DNA of 64,000 nt from an uncultured Flavobacteriales bacterium. GTDB lineage: Bacteria; Bacteroidota; Bacteroidia; Flavobacteriales_D; Crocinitomicaceae. This document shows positions 32,330-57,706 of the stretch, in pieces. The translations under genes were made by a program, and so were the position numbers. The number at the start of each line of letters is the position of its first letter. The first letter of the stretch is position 1. The notes below the pieces were generated by a model. That model worked only from the letters and a program-made list of their open reading frames with translations. It ran no database searches and was not told the DNA's origin. The DNA is taken from contig CALSTG010000001.1 of NCBI GenBank assembly GCA_943789205.1, forward strand, positions 544,160 to 608,159, read 5' to 3'.

Positions 32330-33015
32330 TACTCAGGAACTTCAAACTTGAAACCAACACCATGTAAGTTGGAAATAACAATTCGTTCGTCTTCAGCAAA
32401 ATATTTTCTTAGTTTGGTTATGAAAACATCTAAACTGCGACCAACAAAATAATCATCTTGACCCCAAACACCCTTTAATATAATCTCTCGGGAAATCACC
32501 TGATTCTTGTGTTTGAATAAAATTTTTAAAATCTGGGCTTCCTTTTTCGTAAGTGTCTTATGAGTTTGGTTAATATTGAGCACTTGATTTTCAACATCAT
32601 ATCGATAAGCTCCAATAGCATAGGTCATTTCTTCTGTAACAGGCTCTGACTTAGATCTTCGAAGTAAGGCTTTTACCCTAAGCTCAAACTCCTGAATGCT
32701 AAAAGGTTTGGTTAGATAATCGTCACCACCGGACTCAAAACCCTTTATTTTATCTTCAGTCATAGACTTTGCCGTCAGAAAAAGAATTGGAATATCTTTA
32801 TTTATTTTTCGAATATCCTTGGCTAAGGAAAAACCATCTAATACGGGCAACATAACATCTAGGATACAAAGATTAAATTGTTCTTCATTAAACTTCACAA
32901 GACCCTCAGCACCATCTTCTGCGGAAATAACTTCATAATCTTGCGTCCTGAGATGATCTGCAATTACCAAACCTAAATTAAGGTCATCTTCTACCAATAA
33001 TATCCTCATTTTCAT
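32329..33015 (-). CDS. OmpR-family response regulator
   Basis: 228 aa. The receiver domain has acidic pair VEDD near residue 9, phospho-acceptor Asp in CILDVMLPVLDG (~53) and Lys in YLTKPF (~104). The winged-helix DNA-binding domain ends VFITKLRKYFAEDERIVISNLHGVGFKF. No kinase gene is adjacent; the unpartnered kinase at 16.2 kb is a candidate. The start used is the ATG at 33015; one at 33009 is also possible. A TACATTCG box lies 5 nt upstream. Confidence 0.92.
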   Translation of the reverse strand: MKMRILLVEDDLNLGLVIADHLRTQDYEVISAEDGAEGLVKFNEEQFNLCILDVMLPVLDGFSLAKDIRKINKDIPILFLTAKSMTEDKIKGFESGGDDYLTKPFSIQEFELRVKALLRRSKSEPVTEEMTYAIGAYRYDVENQVLNINQTHKTLTKKEAQILKILFKHKNQVISREIILKGVWGQDDYFVGRSLDVFITKLRKYFAEDERIVISNLHGVGFKFEVPE

Positions 33016-33032
33016 AAAAGCGAATGTACAAA

Positions 33033-33059
33033 AAAAGAGCTCATTTTCTGAGCTCTTTT
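33033..33059 (-). terminator. Hairpin between divergent response-regulator genes
   Basis: AAAAGAGCTCA-TTTTC-TGAGCTCTTTT is an 11-bp palindromic stem. Read on the minus strand it is followed by a T-rich run (TTTTTTTG), like an intrinsic terminator, just before the -7-like box of the 33015 gene. It would stop any transcript entering from the 33.06-33.19 kb gap. Confidence 0.6.
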
Positions 33060-33179
33060 ACTAAATCAACCTAACCTACCGTACTTTAAATTTAAACATT
33101 CACTAACCTTTTTTCACGAATTAGATTTTAGTTTTACAAACATGTTATTCACATTGTCAGGTCTAAAATGAGTTAATTG

Positions 33180-33187
33180 TATATTTG
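33180..33187 (+). promoter_or_regulatory. -7 box TATATTTG, 4 nt before ATG
   Basis: Perfect TAnnTTTG ending 4 nt before the ATG at 33192; it excludes the longer TTG-initiated reading from 33177, which would overlap the box. Confidence 0.65.
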
Positions 33188-33191
33188 TTAT

Positions 33192-33860
33192 ATGAATGAT
33201 ACCCCTATTCTAATTGTTGATGATGAGGAGGACATAAGGGACCTACTCTTATACAATCTACAAAAAGCCGGTTTCGCTGTTGAAGCGGCATCAAATGGCT
33301 TGGAATGTCTTCAAAAAATAAAAACGATTAAACCTCGGCTAATATTACTGGATATTATGATGCCAGAAATGGACGGTGTTGAAGTTTGTCAGCAAATTAA
33401 GTCTGATCCCAAAAACAATGATATTCTCATCTGTTTTTTAACTGCCAGAAGTGAGGACTACAGTCAAATTGCTGCTTTAGAAGCAGGTGGTGATGACTAT
33501 GTAACCAAACCAATTAAACCCAAAGTATTAATCAGTCGTATCAATGCAATTTTAAGAAGATCAATTAAAGAATCGGTTGCAACTGTCGATAAAGGAATTC
33601 ACATTAACTACGACAAATACATAGTGCATAAAGATGGGAATGAAATCATCTTACCTAAAAAAGAATTTGAACTTCTTTCTCTATTGATGTCTAAAACCAA
33701 CCACGTCTTTCGTAGAGATGAAATATTACGCACCGTTTGGGGAACTGAAATTATAGTTGGTGACCGAACTATTGATGTACACATCAGAAAACTAAGAAGT
33801 AAACTTGGAGGTGATTATATTTCTACTATTAAAGGAGTAGGTTATAAATTCAACAATTAA
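33192..33860 (+). CDS. PhoB/OmpR-type response regulator, unpartnered
   Basis: 222 aa from ATG 33192. The receiver has VDDEEDIRD near residue 9, the phospho-Asp in LILLDIMMPEMDG (~53) and YVTKPIKPK. The winged-helix output domain ends DVHIRKLRSKLGGDYISTIKGVGYKF. It resembles the PhoP/PhoB type, but no PhoR-like kinase follows; the next 750 bp are a tandem small-RNA array on the opposite strand and then a phosphatase. A regulatory link to phosphate is only an inference from the neighbouring phosphatase. Confidence 0.9.
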   Translation: MNDTPILIVDDEEDIRDLLLYNLQKAGFAVEAASNGLECLQKIKTIKPRLILLDIMMPEMDGVEVCQQIKSDPKNNDILICFLTARSEDYSQIAALEAGGDDYVTKPIKPKVLISRINAILRRSIKESVATVDKGIHINYDKYIVHKDGNEIILPKKEFELLSLLMSKTNHVFRRDEILRTVWGTEIIVGDRTIDVHIRKLRSKLGGDYISTIKGVGYKFNN

Positions 33861-33868
33861 AATTCTTC

Positions 33869-33929
33869 AAAAAAAAAAACACTGCTTAGCAGCAGTGTCT
33901 TTAGTGATTGAGTTAAAAGTCTTAGTGTT
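33869..33929 (-). ncRNA. Tandem small RNA 1 of 5 (ECF-type promoter, intrinsic terminator)
   Basis: Minus strand. A TGCAAC/CGTC promoter at 33961-33935 is followed by about 30 nt of A/C/T-rich body containing CACTAAGACTTTTAACTCAA. Then comes an 8-bp hairpin ACACTGCT-GCTA-AGCAGTGT (33898-33879) and a run of about ten T. The predicted RNA is ~60 nt; the 5' end is estimated as ~7 nt after CGTC. The same hairpin sits 18 bp after the convergent response-regulator stop and may terminate it too. No ORF is visible. Confidence 0.7.
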
Positions 33930-33934
33930 ATTAT

Positions 33935-33961
33935 GACGTGTGACTTTTAATAATAGTTGCA
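33935..33961 (-). promoter_or_regulatory. ECF-sigma-type promoter of small RNA 1
   Basis: Minus strand: TGCAAC (33961-33956), 17-nt spacer, CGTC (33938-33935). Confidence 0.65.
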
Positions 33962-34005
33962 TGGCAAAAAAAATCTAAAAATCCCTTGAATCAAAAAACA
34001 ATTAA

Positions 34006-34064
34006 TAAAAAAAACACCATCCGAGGATAGTGTTCTTTTGTGATTGAGTTAAAAGTCTTAGTGT
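34006..34064 (-). ncRNA. Tandem small RNA 2 of 5
   Basis: Minus strand. Its body is nearly identical to small RNA 1, sharing a 27-nt block with CACTAAGACTTTTAACTCAA. The terminator stem AACAC-ATC / GAT-GTGTT (34034-34013) has a different loop and one internal mismatch, and a run of eight T follows. Promoter at 34097-34071. Predicted length ~58 nt. The stem differs in sequence from copy 1 but keeps its position, which suggests selection for the hairpin rather than a simple recent duplication. Confidence 0.7.
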
Positions 34065-34070
34065 TAATAT

Positions 34071-34097
34071 GACGCATGATTATTTATAAAAGTTGCA
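34071..34097 (-). promoter_or_regulatory. ECF-sigma-type promoter of small RNA 2
   Basis: Minus strand: TGCAAC (34097-34092), 17-nt spacer, GCGTC/CGTC (CGTC at 34074-34071). Confidence 0.68.
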
Positions 34098-34157
34098 TCA
34101 TTTAATTAATTTAATTTCAGTACCGTTAAACCGTTATTTTAATTTCAACTTAGTAAA

Positions 34158-34213
34158 CAAAAAAAACACTGCCCGTGAGCAGTGTTAATTTTTTTGAATA
34201 ATAGTGTTAGCAT
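34158..34213 (-). ncRNA. Tandem small RNA 3 of 5
   Basis: Minus strand. This is the most divergent body (GCTAACACTATTATTC), with an 8-bp terminator hairpin AACACTGC-TCACGG-GCAGTGTT (34186-34165) and a T8 run. Promoter at 34246-34220. A TATGTTTG sequence overlaps its promoter spacer, so a housekeeping sigma could also act here. Predicted length ~55 nt. Confidence 0.68.
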
Positions 34214-34219
34214 TATGAT

Positions 34220-34246
34220 GACGCAAACATATTAAAAGAAGTTGCA
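34220..34246 (-). promoter_or_regulatory. ECF-sigma-type promoter of small RNA 3
   Basis: Minus strand: TGCAAC (34246-34241), 17-nt spacer, CGTC (34223-34220). The spacer end contains TATGTTTG, a TAnnTTTG match. Confidence 0.66.
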
Positions 34247-34314
34247 TCGTAATTTAAAAAGAATATTTGAAGGCTATTTGAAATGAAAAATCGCCCTAAA
34301 CTTGCACACTACAA

Positions 34315-34379
34315 TAAAAAAAGCACTGCCTAAGCAGTGCTTTCGATAAGAGTAAAATGTTTAAGTTTTCGTAGTCTAT
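34315..34379 (-). ncRNA. Tandem small RNA 4 of 5
   Basis: Minus strand. The body includes AACTTAAACATTTTACTCTT, shared with copy 5. The terminator hairpin AAGCACTGC-TTAG-GCAGTGCTT (34342-34321, 9 bp) is followed by a T7 run. Promoter at 34412-34386. Predicted length ~65 nt. Confidence 0.7.
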
Positions 34380-34385
34380 CTTATA

Positions 34386-34412
34386 GACGCTTGACAATTT
34401 ATTAAAGTTGCA
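34386..34412 (-). promoter_or_regulatory. ECF-sigma-type promoter of small RNA 4
   Basis: Minus strand: TGCAAC (34412-34407), 17-nt spacer, CGTC (34389-34386). Confidence 0.68.
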
Positions 34413-34480
34413 TCAATCTGTTTTTTATTTTTTTTATTAGCATTAACGGTAATAAAAATAGAAAAAAACAAAACCCTGTA

Positions 34481-34546
34481 AAAGACAAAAACACCGCTCG
34501 TTTGCGGTGTTTTTGCTGATAAGAGTAAAAATGTTTTAAGTTTCAA
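34481..34546 (-). ncRNA. Tandem small RNA 5 of 5
   Basis: Minus strand. The body includes AACTTAAAACATTTTTACTC, close to copy 4. The terminator hairpin AAAAACACCGC-AAACGA-GCGGTGTTTTT (34514-34487) has an 11-bp stem with a U-run on either strand, so it may work in both directions. Promoter at 34579-34553. Predicted length ~65 nt. It is the copy nearest the phosphatase gene and the first unit read on the minus strand. Confidence 0.7.
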
Positions 34547-34552
34547 TTTAGA

Positions 34553-34579
34553 GACGCAAGTGTATTTCTAAAAGTTGCA
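34553..34579 (-). promoter_or_regulatory. ECF-sigma-type promoter of small RNA 5
   Basis: Minus strand: TGCAAC (34579-34574; preceded by G instead of A), 17-nt spacer, CGTC (34556-34553). Confidence 0.66.
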
Positions 34580-34627
34580 CAGAGAAATAAAATGTTTATC
34601 CAAACAATTAATTCTTACATTTAGTTC

Positions 34628-36253
34628 ATGAAAAAAATATATCTTTTTATCTTTCTCACACTAGGTTCAATAGCCTATTGCCAAAAGGATTTACCTAAAA
34701 TAATTGTAGGGATTGTTGTTGATCAAATGTGTTATGATTATTTGAATCGTTTTGGTACTAATTTTTCACAAAACGGATTTAACAAGATCATAAATGAAGG
34801 CGCTCACTTAAAAAATATGCACTATAATTATATCCCGACCTACACGGGGCCAGGACATGCATCGATTTATACAGGAACTACACCTGATCATCATGGAATT
34901 ATTGCAAATGATTGGATACAAAGAGAAACAAGAACACAGGTCAATTGTGTAGGTGACGCGACAGTTTATGGTATTGGAAGCAATTCGCTTTATGGTCAAT
35001 CTTCGCCGCATCGGCTTAGTAAAAAAACCATAACAGATATGCTAAAAGAAACATATCCCGAGTCAAAAGTTGTTTCAGTTTCTATAAAAGACCGAGGAGC
35101 CGTATTACCTGGTGGTCAGCAAAGTGATGGAAGCTATTGGTTTGATTACTCAAATGGCACCTTCATAACAAGCTCCTTCTACATGAGTGAATTACCATGC
35201 TGGCTGGATAAATTCAATAAAAAAAACAATGCTCAAAGCTATGCTAAAGTTTGGGAACCTCTTCTTAATCCTGAAGCATACAGCGCGGAGGACGATAGCC
35301 CCTATGAAAGAATTTTAAGAGGAAAAACAAAACCTATATTTCCATATGATATAAAACAACTATGTGATATAAGCGGTTCTCTTACTCCTTTTACAACCTC
35401 ACCTTTTGCAAACACTTTACTTACTGACTTGGCTTTACGTGCTATAAAAAAAGAAAAGCTCGGAAAGGGTTCAAGCCCGGATATGCTATGTATCAGCTAT
35501 TCCTCACCTGACATTGCGGGTCATGCATTTGGTCCTGATTCTAAAGAAATTGAGGATATGTATATTCGTCTCGATCTTGAGCTAGCTCGGTTATTAAATT
35601 CACTGGAGCGCTCTTTTGGAAAGTCAAACATATTATTGTTTTTAACGGCTGACCATGGAGTTGTCCCCGTGCCTCAAAAGCTAATTGATGATGGTGAAAA
35701 GGGTGGTTATGTTTTTATTGATCAATTAATAAATGAGCTTAGAAATAAAAGTATTAATGCTTTCGGTGTCGACTTTATACTAGGTCAGGACAATCTTAAT
35801 ATTTATCTAGATTATCAAAAAATCACAAGCTCTGGTGTAGATAAAGAAGAGATACTAAACCTACTAGAACTTAACATCAAAGGAAAAAAAGGGATTAAAC
35901 AATCGGCTAAAGGAAAAGAGCTTGAAAAGCTTGAAACTGATGATGGCCTTTTAAAAATGCTATCTAAAGGTTTTTATCCTACAAGAAGTGGAGACCTTTT
36001 ACTCATATTAGAGCATGGATATTTACCTAAAACAAACCTGAGTGTAGAACCTTTCAAAGGAACGTCACATGGTTCAGGGTATGCCTATGACACGCATGTG
36101 CCGTGTTTATGGTACGGCATGGATTTAGAAAAAATAGAAATCACACGCAGATTGGCAATAACTGATATTTCAACGACATTATCAAAAATTTTAAAATTGA
36201 AAAAAGGACAAGAAACTGGAACTGAAATAAAAGAATTGATTACCGCTGATTAA
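34628..36253 (+). CDS. PafA-like alkaline phosphatase (type I phosphodiesterase superfamily)
   Basis: 541 aa. Signal peptide 1-~18. The alkaline phosphatase/NPP fold shows IVGIVVDQMCYDYL (metal Asp), the nucleophile-Thr region YIPTYTGPGHASIYTGTTPD at ~61-80, SYSSPDIAGHAFGPDS (metal Asp/His), FLTADHGVVPVP and GTSHGSGYAYDTHVP (final metal His). This matches PafA-type periplasmic monoesterases of Flavobacteria that release phosphate. It is 4 bp upstream of an aminotransferase. A TACATTTA box ends 4 nt before the ATG. Confidence 0.88.
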   Translation: MKKIYLFIFLTLGSIAYCQKDLPKIIVGIVVDQMCYDYLNRFGTNFSQNGFNKIINEGAHLKNMHYNYIPTYTGPGHASIYTGTTPDHHGIIANDWIQRETRTQVNCVGDATVYGIGSNSLYGQSSPHRLSKKTITDMLKETYPESKVVSVSIKDRGAVLPGGQQSDGSYWFDYSNGTFITSSFYMSELPCWLDKFNKKNNAQSYAKVWEPLLNPEAYSAEDDSPYERILRGKTKPIFPYDIKQLCDISGSLTPFTTSPFANTLLTDLALRAIKKEKLGKGSSPDMLCISYSSPDIAGHAFGPDSKEIEDMYIRLDLELARLLNSLERSFGKSNILLFLTADHGVVPVPQKLIDDGEKGGYVFIDQLINELRNKSINAFGVDFILGQDNLNIYLDYQKITSSGVDKEEILNLLELNIKGKKGIKQSAKGKELEKLETDDGLLKMLSKGFYPTRSGDLLLILEHGYLPKTNLSVEPFKGTSHGSGYAYDTHVPCLWYGMDLEKIEITRRLAITDISTTLSKILKLKKGQETGTEIKELITAD

Positions 36254-57267: not shown

Positions 57268-57275
57268 CAAAAGAA

Positions 57276-57310
57276 AAGCCCCTCAATTAATGAGGGGCTT
57301 TTTTTGTTTG
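57276..57310 (+). terminator. Bidirectional terminator after tRNA-Phe
   Basis: AAGCCCCTCA-ATTAA-TGAGGGGCTT, a 10-bp perfect stem followed by TTTTTTGTTT. On the minus strand the run after the stem is TTCTTTTG, so it can also end the 57347-57706 gene. Confidence 0.9.
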
Positions 57311-57346
57311 AAATAAGGAAAGTGCCTTATTGAAACAAGGAGATTT

Positions 57347-57706
57347 TTAATGTGATACAATTAAAGTTTCAGAGGCCATACATTTCTTTTTATAAAAATA
57401 TCCGACCTGATATAAACCTACCTTCAATCGTCTCACAGTAAGGTTTTTAGAAAGGTCACCTGCTAAAATTGTCACAGCTCCATCTGATTTATTAATCAAG
57501 ATGACCTTGTCTATAGGTTGTGAAACATCCCAGTCCAAATTTACATTGGATTCTTTCTTGGATACTTCTAATTTAGCACTGGAAGAACCGAGGTCAGTCT
57601 CATTGCTAAATGAATTTAAAAATATGTCTTCGTGAAATTGATTTTGTTGTGAAAATGTAAAGTTGTTAATGATAACGAGACATATTATTGTAACTATTCT
57701 ATTCAT
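57347..57706 (-). CDS. Small secreted protein, mostly a T9SS-like C-terminal domain
   Basis: 119 aa. Signal peptide 1-~19 (ending FTFSQ), then a ~30-residue linker, then a strand-rich C-terminal half (VNLDWDVSQPIDKVILIN; LTVRRLKVGLYQVGYFYKKKCMASETLIV) that resembles type A sorting domains, although the usual PNP start is missing. No other domain is present. It is the first of three small secreted genes in this stretch. Confidence 0.6.
   Translation of the reverse strand: MNRIVTIICLVIINNFTFSQQNQFHEDIFLNSFSNETDLGSSSAKLEVSKKESNVNLDWDVSQPIDKVILINKSDGAVTILAGDLSKNLTVRRLKVGLYQVGYFYKKKCMASETLIVSH

Follow-up and report, generated by a model that had tools for sequence, protein, structure and literature searches.

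The stretch of DNA considered here (the window) comprises 64,000 nucleotides from an uncultured Flavobacteriales bacterium. Within it, a gap of 767 bp between a gene for a PhoB-like response regulator and one for a PafA-like alkaline phosphatase holds an array of five short units, all on the minus strand and each headed by an exact TGCAAC-N17-CGTC (Table 1). The mean number of such sites in 100 dinucleotide shuffles of the window was 0.02, and none of the shuffles had five. From unit to unit the spacing is 136, 149, 166 and 167 bp, and 48 bp lie between the phosphatase start and the first array promoter. The original prediction had described five minus-strand units with a constant 17-nt spacer, placed 136-167 bp apart between a response regulator and a phosphatase, and these features were all recovered; the distance from CGTC to the hairpin, given there as 33-43 nt, was measured as 31-41 nt across the five units. 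In the whole genome (2.59 Mb), seven exact sites were found, five of them within the array, and because a reversed-pattern control also gave five sites genome-wide, it is by clustering that the array motif stands out.

Table 1. Features of the array locus and of related loci in the same genome. Positions are those of the window unless a contig is named; bit scores of units 1-5 are matches to a covariance model of array units.
Feature	Position	Strand	Details
PhoB-like response regulator	33177..33860	+	convergent with array; TIGR02154 209 bits, below its cut-off of 296
Unit 5 (type D)	33869..33961	-	promoter 33935-33961; core as unit 4; terminator 33875-33902; 89.4 bits
Unit 4 (type D)	34004..34097	-	promoter 34071-34097; core AACACTAAGACTTTTAACTCAATCAC; terminator 34008-34039; 92.0 bits
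Unit 3 (type C)	34156..34246	-	promoter 34220-34246; core ATGCTAACACTATTATTCAAAAAAATT; terminator 34165-34186; 82.0 bits
Unit 2 (type B)	34313..34412	-	promoter 34386-34412; core GACTACGAAAACTTAAACATTTTACTCTTATC; terminator 34319-34344; 75.6 bits
Unit 1 (type A)	34481..34579	-	promoter 34553-34579; core GAAACTTAAAACATTTTTACTCTTATCA; hairpin 34485-34516; 80.6 bits
PafA-like alkaline phosphatase	34628..36253	+	divergent from array; NF042991 568.8 bits, below its cut-off of 650
ECF sigma gene (L099), 177 aa	G000:C1:1247025-1247555, outside window		promoter TGCAACTTTTAGAAACAAATTGTAGTC, 15 nt from ATG
Gene behind sigma gene, probable anti-sigma factor	L099:1964-2893, G000:C1		one likely membrane helix
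Single RRM-domain protein, 182 aa	L301:1492-2040 (G000:C1:366302)		86.6 bits

As expected of ECF-sigma-dependent small-RNA (sRNA) genes, an intrinsic terminator was found after a short non-coding unit, the T-run of unit 1 being weak. A terminator scan of positions 33000-35500 returned seven sites against 1.0 expected. Units 2-5 account for one site each and unit 5 for a second, nested one; of the other two, one is on the strand opposite unit 3 and one lies elsewhere. Unit 1 is absent from this list; it has a strong hairpin followed by a broken T-run (TTTTTGTCTTTT), the weakest T-run of the five. The hairpin with T-run that had been predicted for every unit is borne out for units 2-5, while in unit 1 the T-run is interrupted. 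In MFE folds, for which a start 7 nt after CGTC was assumed, the 5' half of the RNAs is mostly unpaired. On searching the array against Rfam, no family reached its gathering score, and a known Rfam family was set aside as the identity of the array for this reason; the 46 weak matches included neither Flavo-1, with which a comparison had been proposed at the outset, nor LhrC.

The distribution of the array was followed in 53 phosphatase-bearing contigs, obtained from a scan of one-per-species genomes. Units occupy the same gap in at least nine of them (L037, L038, L039, L040, L041, L042, L056, L065 and L066), several of the 53 having little sequence upstream of the phosphatase, and all nine are labelled as Crocinitomicaceae or Flavobacteriales. 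The PhoB-like gene is the left neighbour in all seven array contigs long enough to show that side. Loci that are complete between both flanking genes hold five units (window, L037, L039, L041, L066) or six (L040, L056); that of L065 contains a run of N. Counted from the phosphatase side, the window, L039 and L041 share the type order A, B, C, D, D, and L040 has the same order with a third D. Type B is absent among the five units read in L056, and L066 has unit types of its own, E and F. In this last locus (L066:5406-5956, G030:C49) the differing unit types include four near-identical copies spaced 110-113 bp apart, probably the result of recent duplication in tandem within a single lineage.

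A covariance model of 43 units was also run against 60 genomes, with 70 candidates scored per genome and strict filters, and matched in six of them: the genome of the window, G018, G025, G026, G030 and G032. These are six of the 37 genomes of its genus (own included), and none of the 23 genomes from other families was among them. Promoter and hairpin, on whose conservation in relatives the original prediction had depended, are kept in the relatives that have an array. Outside the arrays, the model gave one partial match (G018:C17) among the 70 candidates scored per genome, and a mobile repeat was rejected as the nature of the units, dispersed copies other than this match not being found under the same filters. 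Weak model matches (E 0.008 to 1) across the phosphatase contigs fell on the reverse strand inside arrays, on a tRNA-adjacent terminator (window 57268-57371), and in L086 and L087.

Identity was determined element by element, by transferring the labels of the window onto pairwise alignments of the whole gap. Between the window and L039, the -35 boxes (30/30) and -10 boxes (20/20) are identical, and core (148/159) and terminator (118/133) are far closer than the promoter spacer (53/85) and the linkers (153/305). The corresponding values for core, terminator and linkers are 141/159, 105/133 and 152/305 for L040, and 143/159, 108/133 and 151/305 for L041; L037 is nearer to the window overall (linkers 219/305). 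In four relatives, promoter boxes, core and terminator are 79-100% identical to those of the window and the linkers 50-72%, and the fifth relative is lower (L056: core 108/159, terminator 94/133, linkers 135/305). This pattern suggests that selection acts on promoter, RNA and terminator.

Stem covariation was assessed in an alignment of 43 units, which were picked by exact promoter, so that promoter invariance within this alignment is by construction. Duplicate contigs (L038, L090-L092) and units that were cut short or contained N (L042, L065, contig ends) were excluded, as were three units without an exact promoter that were found later (L037 5241-5332, L038 454-552, L056 5210-5302). Pairing is kept in 97.7% of 344 stem cells, and six of the eight pairs have changed on both sides. 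Such double-sided changes amount to 41 cells as compared with 12.2 in shuffles, none of 500 shuffles reaching 41, and in type D units alone all 126 stem cells are paired. Each unit type keeps a distinct extended core of about 20-30 nt between species. Conserved cores and terminators, a covarying stem and siblings in relatives together support the earlier suggestion that these are probably sibling sRNA genes.

A profile of sigma region 2 had 12 matches in the genome, one of them below cut-off and two RpoD-like by length. At N17 spacing, the ECF gene of Table 1 is the only one of these 12 sigma-like genes with the array motif upstream of its start; the remaining 11 show 2-4 mismatches of 9 at the same spacing. 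All 30 sigma orthologue loci read have TGCAAC-N17-NGTC upstream, at 7-15 nt from the earliest possible start; they are the best 30 loci, each from a different genome of the genus (G004, G007 and G024 matched and had no locus). As its own -10, the sigma gene has AGTC in place of CGTC in the five array genomes where it was found; about ten other genomes have CGTC. In G030, where the array is present, the best sigma match is weak (E 1e-13) and no close orthologue was found in an assembly that is 68% complete. The ECF-type promoter proposed from the window alone is therefore one that an ECF sigma gene itself carries, and the shared motif points to the L099 factor as the probable user of the array promoters.

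The wider pattern TGCAACTT-N15-MGTC occurs at 41 sites in the six array genomes, against three for the reversed control. It precedes array units at 26 sites, the sigma gene at five, a cargo gene of the type IX secretion system (T9SS) at three (own genome, G032, G025) and a lipoprotein gene at two (own genome, G032); among the five other sites, three of which were read, one lies opposite a coding frame. With 26 of the 41 sites, array promoters are the commonest motif sites in the array clade. An unexplained counter-point is provided by an RpoD-like gene (L098), which has TCCAAC-N16-CGTC, one mismatch to the motif, about 23 nt before its start; a second RpoD-like factor could be under ECF control. 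In array-less congeners (G010, G011, G013, G021, G022, G027, G034), single promoters of the array motif were observed, with spacers similar between species, and the few that were read lie upstream of the sigma gene and of secreted-protein genes. The leader of the lipoprotein gene (L267, L281), about 80 nt long behind a sigma-type promoter, contains the conserved blocks TTAACTCCG, TTATTTCATCGTAG and AACGAATTCAATCAAAACGATG, which resemble short stretches of the sRNA cores.

The gene behind the sigma gene encodes about 270-320 residues in orthologues, a single membrane helix being likely near residue 50, and by position and helix its product is a probable anti-sigma factor. At its C-terminus, the protein from the genome of the window has a T9SS sorting domain (matches to TIGR04131 and CHU_C). 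A script recovered the frame in 15 of the 30 loci, and ten of these were scanned for domains together with L099; CHU_C was present in all ten further orthologues, which brings the sorting domain to 11 of 11 tested. It is possible that a putative anti-sigma factor with such a domain serves as a direct gauge of T9SS export. The product of the cargo gene, of 1026 aa, carries a C-terminal TIGR04183. Three species (L283, L284, L285) share a 21-nt block, GAGAGATAAGAAGTTATGAGT, without a single difference across the cargo start codon, while the sequence on either side differs.

For the array RNAs, pairing in trans would be the likeliest action. No match to Hfq (PF17209) was found in the genome, the assembly of which is 94.85% complete. 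In the same genome a single RRM-domain protein is encoded (Table 1), scoring below the cut-off of 100 of an NCBIfam RNA-binding regulator family. No conserved target that would pair over about 13 bases or more emerged from antisense searches, in which matches of long cores and seeds outside the arrays were near or below the control level. Long core D (wobble allowed, up to 3 mismatches) had 15 matches in five genomes, ten of them in arrays, as compared with 19 when the pattern was reversed; of the five outside, two (G000, G026) are antisense within a single coding region, which by eye resembles that of a receptor. With the 13-nt A/B seed, 69 sites were obtained (8 in arrays) as compared with 90 in the control, and with the D seed 45 (10 in arrays) as compared with 33; among the sites listed (30 per seed search and 20 further stretches) no conserved start-region seed site was found.

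When duplex energies were ranked over 67 start regions, the cargo gene came first for core B and third for core A, with a cargo stretch that extended into the promoter; on the leader alone, the value for core B changes from -17.1 to -12.9. The neighbours phoB (-14.6) and pafA (-13.6) also rank high for core A. A shuffled-core test covered eight leaders and four window cores, i.e. 32 pairs with 2000 shuffles each. Core A on the cargo leader was matched by 60, 69 and 93 of 2000 shuffles in three genomes, core B on the same leader by 181, 198 and 187, and core D on the sigma leader by 138, 159 and 1132; other pairs were weaker, and none of the 32 was significant after correction. The best target lead, weakly favoured by the shuffles, would be the cargo start region GAGAGATAAGAAGTTATGAGT facing cores A and B.

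We consider it probable that the array consists of five sibling, Hfq-independent regulatory sRNA genes driven by one autoregulated, T9SS-linked ECF sigma factor. Each unit would be transcribed leftward from its own promoter by the L099 factor, which by promoter motif would also drive its own gene, the T9SS cargo gene and the lipoprotein gene. The transcripts are predicted to start about 7 nt after CGTC and to end at the intrinsic terminator, which would make them roughly 55-70 nt long, their 5' half being poor in G and mostly unpaired. Release of the sigma factor from the probable anti-sigma factor, a putative membrane protein with a T9SS sorting domain at its end, would switch the array on. 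The array would thereby multiply and diversify trans-acting base-pairing RNAs, and the most likely effect of these would be that certain mRNAs for surface or secreted proteins are translated less, with no part played by Hfq and perhaps one by the RRM protein. A more specific proposal, which we regard as tentative and rather doubtful, is a relief circuit for the T9SS similar to that of sigma-E, MicA and RybB. The sorting domain of the anti-sigma factor would gauge export capacity. A block in export would free the sigma factor, which would then devote most of its promoters to the sibling sRNAs of the array, and these would shut down the translation of T9SS cargo, among it the cargo transcribed by the factor itself (through core A or B on GAGAGATAAGAAGTTATGAGT). 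Little is known of how small RNAs act in Bacteroidota, and control by those of the array would operate without Hfq. An ECF sigma factor, a promoter motif and a conserved sRNA array are here linked by sequence alone, and the type IX secretion signal on the probable anti-sigma factor makes this a testable case of RNA feedback on a secretion system that is in wide use in the phylum.

CsrB-type RNAs titrate CsrA, and the array RNAs could act as a sponge in which a common protein-binding motif (around ACTC-ATC) titrates an RNA-binding protein such as the RRM protein, in place of pairing with mRNAs. A short motif before the terminator is indeed common to types A, B, D and E (it is less clear in C and F), there are several copies per locus and one RRM protein in the genome, and long conserved targets were not found in the antisense searches; however, the distinct cores kept by each unit type exceed the need of a short binding site, and we hold this explanation to be unlikely. 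Far less probable is a role of the DNA itself with inert RNAs, either as a decoy titrating the ECF sigma factor or as a block of terminators that shields the divergent phosphatase. The presence in one gap of several terminators and of promoter boxes in five identical pairs would suit both roles, but neither requires a core conserved at least as well as the terminator, as was seen against L039 with its diverged linkers. Least probable is that the units encode very small proteins, for although a 56-aa ORF with a TTG start spans units 1-2 and unit 1 reads ATGAAACTTAAAACA in L039 and L056, the codon at the start place of the unit 1 frame drifts among relatives (TTG, ATG, ACG or TGG) and the frame enters the terminator stem, so that the original statement that no ORF is present holds in substance and not to the letter.

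The preferred reading, of sibling sRNA genes under an ECF sigma factor, can be compared with several known systems. MicA and RybB of enterobacteria are short terminated sRNAs made by sigma-E, an ECF factor, in an envelope stress circuit; they are Hfq-dependent and encoded by unlinked single genes. Unlike for these, Hfq was not found in the array genome, so that of the parallel originally drawn the circuit logic stands and the machinery does not. In Porphyromonas gingivalis, the ECF sigma factor SigP is tied to the T9SS together with PorXY, and the CTD protein PorA feeds the pathway (PMC4800418, PMC7712824). The available text of these reports suggests another promoter motif and two-component control, and sRNAs are not mentioned in it. 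The FopS family and GibS of Bacteroides thetaiotaomicron are described as paralogous sRNAs that are bound by RbpB and repress an outer-membrane SusC mRNA (PMC11697453). According to the accessible portion of that paper, FopS comprises 14 copies at multiple loci with canonical sigma-ABfr promoters, whereas the array occupies one locus and has ECF-type promoters.

LhrC1-5 of Listeria monocytogenes are, in the portion of the report at hand, five closely similar sRNAs, siblings controlled by a single regulator of envelope stress, the LisRK two-component system; a CU-rich loop in them pairs with an AG-rich start region (PMC5880928). The array resembles them in having sibling copies with one promoter type and differs in its assignment to an ECF sigma factor, in phylum and in the absence of LhrC from its Rfam matches. 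The original prediction knew of no description of an ECF-controlled sibling array in Bacteroidota. A single ECF-promoter sRNA has a published precedent in the phylum, Rfp11 of Flavobacterium psychrophilum, behind an ECF-type SM6 promoter with a CGT -10 box (PMC9723704); for a tandem array of sibling sRNAs under an ECF sigma factor in Bacteroidota, no report was found in the open-access literature searched. Rfp11, likened to the array by description alone, is listed there as one RNA, and the part of the paper available does not mention tandem siblings (PMC9723704). Precedents for the parts are thus provided, within the text available, by Rfp11 for an sRNA with an ECF promoter, by FopS for paralogous sRNAs in Bacteroidota and by LhrC1-5 for siblings under one stress regulator. 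The SM6 list of F. psychrophilum, as given in the same available text, also holds an ECF/anti-sigma pair and T9SS genes (PMC9723704), a set that by analogy fits the same kind of circuit as that proposed for the array.
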